NCBI GenBank assembly: GCA_017434525.1 | Contig: JAFRFD010000012.1 | Span: forward strand, 1-64,000 | Reading direction: 5' to 3' | Source: Methanobrevibacter sp. | GTDB taxonomy: Archaea; Methanobacteriota; Methanobacteria; Methanobacteriales; Methanobacteriaceae | DNA length: 64,000 nucleotides | Shown here: positions 15,063-35,306 of the stretch, in pieces | How the letters are laid out: each line of letters begins with the position of its first letter | How positions within the stretch are numbered: position 1 is the first letter of the stretch | Program-made: the position numbers and the translations under genes | The notes under the pieces: model-generated | Databases searched by the model: none | Seen by the model: only the letters and a program-made list of their open reading frames with translations | Told to the model about the DNA's origin: nothing

Positions 15063-15092
15063 TTTACATTCGTCTATTAAATCTCCTATAAT
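15063..15092 (+). promoter_or_regulatory. Early-type promoter for the 15120 gene and downstream RNA
   Basis: TTTACA (15063-15068), 18 bases, TATAAT (15087-15092), then ATATTGTAAATA, an initial-transcript string shared with the promoters at 39872, 42727 and 61637. The upstream gene's TAG stop (15060-15062) forms TAGTTTACA. It lies between late-type units. Confidence 0.75.
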
Positions 15093-15119
15093 AATATTGT
15101 AAATAAAGGGGATTAAGAA

Positions 15120-15479
15120 ATGAGGATTACTAGAAATACTGGAAATAACACAACTGTCTACCATGTAAACGAAAATCATGGTAACTATCACATCCGTGAA
15201 AGAGATTATCATAACGTATCAGTTGGACCGTCTTTCGCTTATTTCGTAATAGCGGGAATGATTTTATTTTCATTATTAATAGTATTTATAGTTTACCCAA
15301 AAGGTAATTCACTTGAATACTACAAAGAAATGATTGAAATTGGTTCATACGCAGTAATCTACATAGTGTTTGGAATAGGAAATATTCTTACAGGTGGAAC
15401 CTTATTCAGACACATCCTCTTAAACTTATTCTTAGTTGGTCCTGTTCTGGGAACTGTACTGACTAGATTATTATTCTAA
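15120..15479 (+). CDS. Small membrane protein with three predicted TM helices
   Basis: 119 residues. A polar N-terminus of about 35 residues is followed by hydrophobic segments at roughly 38-60 (FAYFVIAGMILFSLLIVFIV), 78-96 and 99-118. There is no signal-peptide cleavage motif. It is driven by an early-type promoter, unlike the late genes on both sides. It shares its transcript with the anti-SD hairpin that follows directly after its stop. Function is unknown; an effect on the host membrane or on superinfection is a guess from context only. Confidence 0.65.
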   Translation: MRITRNTGNNTTVYHVNENHGNYHIRERDYHNVSVGPSFAYFVIAGMILFSLLIVFIVYPKGNSLEYYKEMIEIGSYAVIYIVFGIGNILTGGTLFRHILLNLFLVGPVLGTVLTRLLF

Positions 15480-15571
15480 CAACAAATTATTGTTTATACA
15501 AATCACCTCCTTTCTAGGGCCAGCGTCGTCTTTATTCACCTCCTTTCACGGCGTTGGCCATTTTTTGTTGT
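15479..15571 (+). ncRNA. Putative anti-Shine-Dalgarno RNA element with terminator
   Basis: ATCACCTCCTTTCTA (15502-15516) is the same as the 3' end of Bacillota 16S rRNA. A 12-bp stem follows: GGCCAGCGTCGT (15518-15529) pairs with ACGGCGTTGGCC (15548-15559), with two G-U pairs. Its 18-base loop carries a second copy, TTCACCTCCTTTC (15535-15547). Six T residues (15561-15566) make it an intrinsic terminator on the + strand. An outer 8-bp pairing (ACAACAAA 15479-15486 with TTTGTTGT 15564-15571) could enclose the whole element. It would be the 3' end of the transcript begun at about 15099. Function as an RNA is inferred. Confidence 0.6.
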
Positions 15572-15587
15572 ATTTTATTTTGTATAT

Positions 15588-15608
15588 TTTGCTAAATTAA
15601 ATATAATA
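15588..15608 (+). promoter_or_regulatory. Late-type promoter motif before SWIM-domain gene
   Basis: TGCTAAATTAAATATAAT lies here, identical over its core to the copy at 2691. It directly follows the anti-SD terminator and restarts late transcription. Confidence 0.65.
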
Positions 15609-33900: not shown

Positions 33901-35306
33901 AATCACAATGGACTATTGAATCAACTAATACAACAATTGAATCAATTAGTACAAATGGATTTAACTCAAATATTACATGGCAATATAAAGACTTCAGTAT
34001 TAATAATTTAATAATTCAGGAATTAAACGTTGTAACCCTAGGAAATACTGACCAAGTATCAGTCATTGACTGGTCAGGTGATAATTCAAGTATAGTAAAA
34101 CCTACTAGCCTTAATAATAAATGGCAAGATTGTGGTGGAACTATTTATTATAAGATAAACGGTAAACAAACTTCATTAAAGAAACTTAATTTAGAAGATG
34201 GTTATCAAATCAGAAGTAGATTAGATTTAGTCACTGATAAATATAATGGCCAGAAGCTGTTAAGTGGTGATGGAAGTCAGCAAACTATTAAGGTAAAATA
34301 TTTCTCAGGTGCTGAGTCTGTTATTACACCAGATGGTGGTGGAAGTAGTAGCAGTGAGACTTCAGAGTTATATGTACAAAGTACTGTACCTCTTGATTTA
34401 ATCGGAAGTGAAAATATGAACATTGATTTGATTACTTCAAATACAATGTTGAACTTTATGACTTACCAAAAGAATAACCCGAAAGTTTATACCGTTAATG
34501 GAAGTCAGGGTTATTCTGAAGAAGAAATTCAAAGTGATAATGGAAAATACGTAATTAGCATTGAAGGTGCTGGTTATGCGGAATTCCCGTTCACCTATGA
34601 TAACTACTTTACTAACTATGATGGCGCAAGCAGAGAATATGTATTACCAGTATTTATTTCTGGTGACAAATATTCTAACCCAATTACTGCTAGCTTCATT
34701 GTTGACCGTACACATGACCCAGACTCATCATCTGGTTATACTCCTATTCCTGATACTTCAGAAGGAATTGAGGTACTTGACTATAATCATGGTTCTCCTG
34801 CTTCAACTTTAACAATGAACAATAAGGAATTATATTTAGTAACTCCTGTTGTACCAAGTGGGTTAACTTATGAAGAGGGTTCAACTTATGATGATGAGGC
34901 TCCTACTCCATTTGAAGAAGCTTATATAAAAGGTGACCTAATATTAAGACTTGAATGGGATGACCCTCAAGGGGTAGAAATTATTACTGTCTATGACCCA
35001 AAAATTATTCGTGGAGTTAACGATGGTATCGCTGCTGTAAGCAGTGTAGTTACTATGGGAGATGTTCTTGATAGGATGGATTACTTAGTAGCTCACTCTA
35101 ATAAACCTAATGTAAAACCTTATTATATTAATGAACCTGAACAGAGTATTGCTATACAAGACCCTGACTTCAGTAATCCTAATATTTTCTGGGACAAGAA
35201 TAACGTAGCTAACTTAGTTACTATTCCACAGATTATTATTCCGAGTGATAACATTGATATTATTAAATCAATGAAAGGTTACTCTTTAAAGGAAGAGGGT
35301 AAATAA
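30960..35306 (+). CDS. Large baseplate wedge protein (gp6/gpJ-like) with C-terminal extension
   Basis: 1448 residues, one TGA (31593-31595) read as Trp. The N-terminal 600 residues (YTDKDFASIYPDLLDLAS, SNESDPGVVLLKEGAFIAD, RSVRNITEMNGYTPRYY, then TLVTRRDYENAIKEM) match gp6/gpJ-type wedge proteins, which form the baseplate ring. From about residue 650 onward there is a long Ser/Thr/Asn/Tyr-rich part with Glu-Pro linker and Ig-like strands. Such extensions are not part of the standard wedge core and may bind fibres. Confidence 0.75.

Follow-up and report, generated by a model that had tools for sequence, protein, structure and literature searches.

A one-gene, early-type transcription unit lying among the late genes of a tailed phage ends in a 3' untranslated region (UTR) and intrinsic terminator that carries two copies of an anti-Shine-Dalgarno motif, one of them an exact 15-base repeat of what we take to be the 3' tail of Bacillota 16S rRNA. 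One copy lies in a predicted single-stranded joint and the other in the terminator loop. The terminator of this cargo unit may double as an anti-Shine-Dalgarno regulatory RNA acting in trans on strong Shine-Dalgarno (SD) sites, a reading that we favour tentatively and place somewhat short of an even chance.

The window analysed here comprises the first 64,000 bases of a contig of 151,219 bases, which is a T4-like tailed phage. Its major capsid protein matches the T4-type Pfam family Gp23 (E 3.6e-25), and its closest capsid matches among named phages are Listeria phage LIS04, Streptococcus phage vB_SagM-GXN1 and Bacillus phage SP-15 (27-29% identity), with partial and weaker matches to Rhizobium phages. 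That the best named relatives come from Bacillota agrees with the Bacillota type of the 16S tail. An archaeal/eukaryal eIF-6 is present in the 3.13-Mb assembly bin that holds the contig; searches of the bin found no 16S rRNA and no match to methyl-coenzyme M reductase alpha. Since the bin looks archaeal, the contig, which is that of a bacterial phage, was probably misbinned. In alignments with relatives, TGA stands opposite tryptophan TGG 42 times, opposite TGA 8 times and opposite other codons 5 times, and TGA is a tryptophan codon in this phage. ARAGORN found 29 tRNAs just outside the window, one with a UCA anticodon; this tRNA has a long variable arm (L232:1903-1999, with the tRNA genes within L232:1903-8570 of the phage contig), and the tRNA-Trp of the phage has the anticodon CCA. 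Named phages showed no DNA similarity to the region of the element, and Rfam at gathering score gave no family in the window and, over the remainder of the contig, nothing but tRNAs.

The transcription unit and its two anti-Shine-Dalgarno copies

The unit and its element comprise the following features.

15063..15092, plus strand: early-type promoter, TTTACA-18-TATAAT, 11/12 matches
15107..15112, plus strand: Shine-Dalgarno site AGGGGA of the cargo gene, from the sequence; moderate pairing with the anti-SD copies, rank 88 and 118 of 176 starts
15120..15479, plus strand: cargo gene from the open reading frame list, encoding a 119-aa orphan with roughly three hydrophobic helices
15480..15486, plus strand: predicted 5' arm of an outer stem, immediately after the stop codon
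15490..15501, plus strand: small 4-bp hairpin, predicted, weak
15502..15516, plus strand: anti-SD copy 1, ATCACCTCCTTTCTA, in the single-stranded joint; mostly unpaired, near 0.5 at 15510-15511
15518..15529, plus strand: predicted 5' arm of the terminator hairpin
15535..15547, plus strand: anti-SD copy 2, TTCACCTCCTTTC, in the 18-nt loop 15530-15547; unpaired probability about 1
15548..15559, plus strand: predicted 3' arm of the terminator hairpin
15561..15566, plus strand: T-run of the intrinsic terminator, from the sequence; 15564-15570 doubles as the predicted 3' arm of the outer stem
15591..15605, plus strand: late-type promoter GCTAAATTAAATATA of the next head gene, which bounds the element and is equally placed in relatives

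The initial annotation had described the element as the 3' end of an early-promoter transcript placed among late genes, and the order of promoters supports this: an early-type promoter stands ahead of the cargo gene and a late-type one behind the terminator, the labels "early" and "late" being drawn from promoter type and gene content. The contig has ten plus-strand sites that match the early-type promoter at 11/12 positions or better, seven of them in the 9.5 kb of intergenic DNA, and they typically lie about 27-30 bases ahead of a gene; the cargo promoter lies 27 bases upstream. The late-type motif occurs 13 times in the contig, mostly at most 64 bases ahead of genes. Between the cargo promoter and the element we found no further promoter-like site on the plus strand (15120-15480), and the element begins right after the stop codon of the cargo gene. 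The 119-aa protein has no relative in IMG/VR, the named phages or PHROGs, and none above the cut-off in Pfam.

The motif TCACCTCCTTTC occurs exactly twice in the 3.13-Mb assembly, starting at 15503 and 15536, 33 bases apart, so that both occurrences fall inside the element. Under a third-order Markov model of the 151-kb contig, 0.0023 copies are expected per strand, and about 2e-9 pairs no more than 60 bases apart. The claim that 15502-15516 repeats the Bacillota 16S 3' end thus stands, the identity being exact and far beyond chance. The duplication is likewise non-random, since a 15-base identity to the 16S tail together with a second 12-base copy is far from chance; the second copy could have arisen neutrally by a local duplication of 12 bp. 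By eye the likeness to 16S rRNA is limited to its last 15 bases. A fragment of a 16S rRNA gene was considered and rejected, as there is no homology past the tail (helix 45 and upstream) and the window gave no rRNA match at gathering score.

Fold and strand of the element

Fold prediction for the RNA at 15480-15572 gave, in order, the outer stem, the small hairpin, a 16-nt joint (15502-15517) nearly coextensive with copy 1, a 12-bp hairpin with copy 2 in its 18-nt loop, and then ATTTTTTG. The hairpin (15518-15529 with 15548-15559; 8 G-C, 2 A-U and 2 G-U pairs) has a predicted energy of -19.2 kcal/mol on its own, and the entire element one of -24.8 to -26.9 kcal/mol (z = -6.4), with none of 200 shuffles as stable. 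Because 97 of 3000 random 93-base pieces of the contig reach this energy, which puts the element in the lowest 3%, the fold by itself is not extraordinary; the placement of the motifs within it is. Judged by its sequence, with 12 bp, 8 G-C pairs, ATTTTTTG and a position at the end of a unit, the hairpin qualifies as an intrinsic (Rho-independent) terminator. Its loop of 18 nt compares with loops of 3-6 nt in the 15 other clear terminators of the contig, where the only other long-loop case, at 149151, contains a late promoter in its loop.

Both copies are predicted to be exposed, with unpaired probabilities above 0.8 at most motif positions and a minimum of about 0.5 at 15510-15511, so that the element shares a predicted accessible, SD-complementary motif with the functional class of translational repressors with anti-SD or C-rich loops. 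These predictions confirm that a second copy of the core fills the 18-base loop of a 12-bp hairpin followed by a T-run, and they give the outer stem that had been suggested as a possibility 7-8 bp, at about 15480-15486 and 15564-15570. The two G-U pairs of the hairpin had been taken as a sign of selection on structure. This argument falls: the module is unique, covariation is absent for want of a homologue, and the pairs carry no evidence.

Read on the opposite strand, the two motifs are perfect SD words, and they might be the SD sites GAAAGGAGGTGA of minus-strand genes, much as most matches to the word pair in other viruses look like minus-strand starts or repeats within genes. No gene of credible length follows, however, and no frame open through both motifs exceeds 23 codons. 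Of the 192 called frames, 176 lie on the plus strand; the remaining 16, on the minus strand, are short and score poorly for SD sites. The T-run and the fold belong to the plus strand only, the minus strand of the element folding no better than shuffles (z = -1.2). The convincing genes of the contig, mostly equipped with SD sites, are all on the plus strand, which excludes minus-strand gene starts for practical purposes; we rejected them as scarcely credible. These results support the initial preference for a plus-strand RNA.

Relatives and the cargo site behind the capsid gene

We searched IMG/VR for relatives with the capsid, g15619, g16549 and g15120 proteins. The element was found in none of the relatives, and the nearest syntenic loci have plain terminators. 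In two relatives with g14397 proteins 45-50% identical and g15619 proteins 81-90% identical to those of the phage (L003 and L010), only about 83 bases separate these genes, holding a plain terminator and the same late promoter. In five others (L012, L005, L007, L008 and L013) the capsid gene and g15619 are separated by different small genes or by different sequence. As the inserts differ among relatives, the interval behind the major capsid gene is a cargo site in which lineages carry different small genes. The cargo of relatives is closed by an ordinary hairpin just ahead of the conserved late promoter, and in this phage promoter, gene and anti-SD terminator (15063-15572) look like one unit unique to it. 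Conservation of the hairpin in relatives, which had been proposed as a check, is absent because the whole module is missing there. A 35-base match in a related bin (L073) extends over the second half of the element alone and was treated as chance.

The capsid gene itself is interrupted in several relatives (L004 and L010, which are two ends of IMGVR_UViG_3300026549_000043, L009, L011, L015 and L016). Protein matches are split near residues 73-80, by stretches that range from several hundred to some 2,500 bases, and in L003, L010, L015 and L016 further along as well, as if by introns, inteins or inserted genes.

A wider search for equivalents was made with paired anti-SD words. Among the 55 stretches found in IMG/VR and the 26 in GTDB genomes, none has the same terminator hairpin; those inspected look like minus-strand SD sites, within-gene repeats or arrays. 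Single anti-SD words before a T-run were collected from IMG/VR in two sets, of 116 and at least 120 stretches, the second being a sample. Two unrelated phage contigs (L115 and L262) have genuine-looking terminators with one anti-SD word in the loop. The count of such terminators, 2-3 among 236 stretches, fits the roughly 3.5 expected for random positions before T-runs, and the two are therefore no evidence for a class.

A further stretch, L231:2827-3155 (CADCMR010000013.1, uncultured bacterium RUG14783, at about 34827-35152 of the contig), is a tandem array with 14 exact ATCACCYCCTTTCT matches, built of 16S-tail-like units of 20-26 bases and degenerate copies. It sits in the sense strand between plus-strand genes for Pkinase-domain and Sel1-repeat proteins, ends before a T-run and has no predicted structure (z +2.1). 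An anti-SD array RNA is one possible reading of it among others.

These comparisons bear on the main sceptical reading, in which the element is a plain intrinsic terminator of the cargo gene and the anti-SD-like, pyrimidine-rich word arose by chance or drift and was locally duplicated without regulatory role. The position is ancestral, with relatives having ordinary hairpins ahead of the same late promoter; there is no conservation; and anti-SD words in terminator loops of IMG/VR are no commoner than chance. Against this stand the improbability of the 15-base identity with its second copy, a loop length that is an outlier in the genome, and the location of both copies in unpaired places. We take this reading seriously and judge it rather unlikely.

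Possible function and precedents

Starting from the sequence, the predicted fold and accessibility, the promoter and terminator types and the non-random duplication, regulation by the anti-SD terminator would proceed as follows. RNA polymerase would start at about 15100, transcribe the gene for the 119-aa membrane protein and stop at the hairpin. The 3' end, whether still part of the mRNA or released by processing as a fragment of about 90 nt, would then present two redundant CACCUCCUUUC motifs, displayed in the single-stranded joint and in the terminator loop, which would pair in trans with strong SD sites of the AAAGGAGGUGA type and block 30S binding. The targets would be host mRNAs with long SD sites rather than phage mRNAs. 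At 160 phage starts, the exact match to the complement of the motif is never longer than 8 bases (a length reached in 5 genes) and most often measures 5; because a perfect host SD of 12 bases would pair better, the RNA might be biased against host messages. Against the model, a motif that fits every SD site has little specificity, and the absence of a homologue leaves the sequence with neither conservation nor covariation to offer. Because the 16S tail, present at high copy in every ribosome, competes with an mRNA 3' end, repression of a subset of strong SD sites is more plausible than a global effect on translation.

The RNA might instead act on its own message. Such self-regulation, in which the 3' UTR pairs with the SD of the cargo gene (AAAGGGGA, 15105-15112), lowers translation and invites RNase III, has a precedent in icaR (PMC3868564), and the SD pairs with copy 1 in part of the full-length ensemble (probability about 0.13). 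The cargo-gene start is nevertheless a middling target, ranking 88th of 176 for copy 1 and 118th for copy 2, and the dominant partners of its SD are coding bases (15414-15432), so that we see only a slim chance of this.

A different use of the mimicry would be as a decoy, in which the two exposed copies draw off a toxin-type RNase of the host, or some other factor that targets or occupies the anti-SD during infection. Toxins with RNase activity are known to take off the anti-SD: the cut made by MazF-mt11 falls at C^ACCU, just ahead of it (PMC12274833), and that of RelE1 directly upstream of it (PMC12620021). CACCU is predicted to be single-stranded in both copies, the match of copy 1 to the 16S tail extends past the pairing core, and phage PhiTE with ToxIN gives a precedent in principle for phage RNA mimicry directed at a toxin (PMC3475682). 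However, the anti-SD-cutting toxins were shown in mycobacteria, outside the likely host group, and a decoy would need very high abundance; we give it little credence. A bolder proposal, which we consider improbable, is that an early phage RNA mimics, in duplicate, the 3' end of host 16S rRNA and thereby either shuts off host messages with long SDs, sparing the weaker SDs of the phage, or soaks up a defence RNase that cuts the anti-SD.

Regulation by an exposed anti-SD motif has close bacterial precedents. In LhrC, a single-stranded stretch and the terminator loop each hold CU-rich motifs; both can bind the target mRNA, and the interaction impedes translation (PMC4132741). The phage element resembles LhrC1-5 of Listeria monocytogenes, also a member of the Bacillota, in having redundant CU-rich motifs in these two places, which in LhrC are aimed at the SD. 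LhrC differs in being a stand-alone sRNA with three motifs (CUCCC) and shown bacterial targets, whereas the phage element is an mRNA 3' end with an exact 16S tail; it shows no sequence-family relation to LhrC, with no Rfam match at gathering score in the window, and no plus-strand promoter-like site of its own within 15120-15480. RNAIII and the Rsa RNAs of Staphylococcus aureus pair exposed UCCC loops with SD sites (PMC3861533) and share the exposed C-rich loops, but are chromosomal and stand-alone and have a shorter motif. In the icaR mRNA of S. aureus, UCCCCUG in the 3' UTR pairs with the SD of the same mRNA (PMC3868564). The placement of an anti-SD motif in an mRNA 3' UTR is thus alike, while icaR pairs with its own 5' UTR and the cargo-gene start is not the preferred partner of the phage element.

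Several phage and prophage RNAs (AgvB, AsxR, c4, DicF and STnc6030) act on translation, c4 by binding around the ribosome binding site; in the parts of this source consulted, neither a copy of the 16S tail nor a general anti-SD is described for them, unlike in the phage element (PMC12197685). The initial annotation knew of no described phage RNA of this kind. Within the literature searched this holds, as we found no phage RNA with the 16S tail itself, twice, in a terminator; the novelty does not extend to the mechanism, for which LhrC, RNAIII and icaR are close precedents.

The element is at present a well-defined single case without relatives. Anti-SD pairing through exposed C-rich loops is established translational repression by RNAs of Bacillota; the mechanism is known from bacteria, and the new form, if expressed, is a phage message that ends in two copies of the 16S tail. 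It would then offer a simple test of whether a phage biases translation away from host messages by competing for SD sites or, alternatively, shields ribosomes with a decoy tail. Either reading, host shut-off or RNase decoy, would if true amount to mimicry of ribosomal RNA by a phage transcript.
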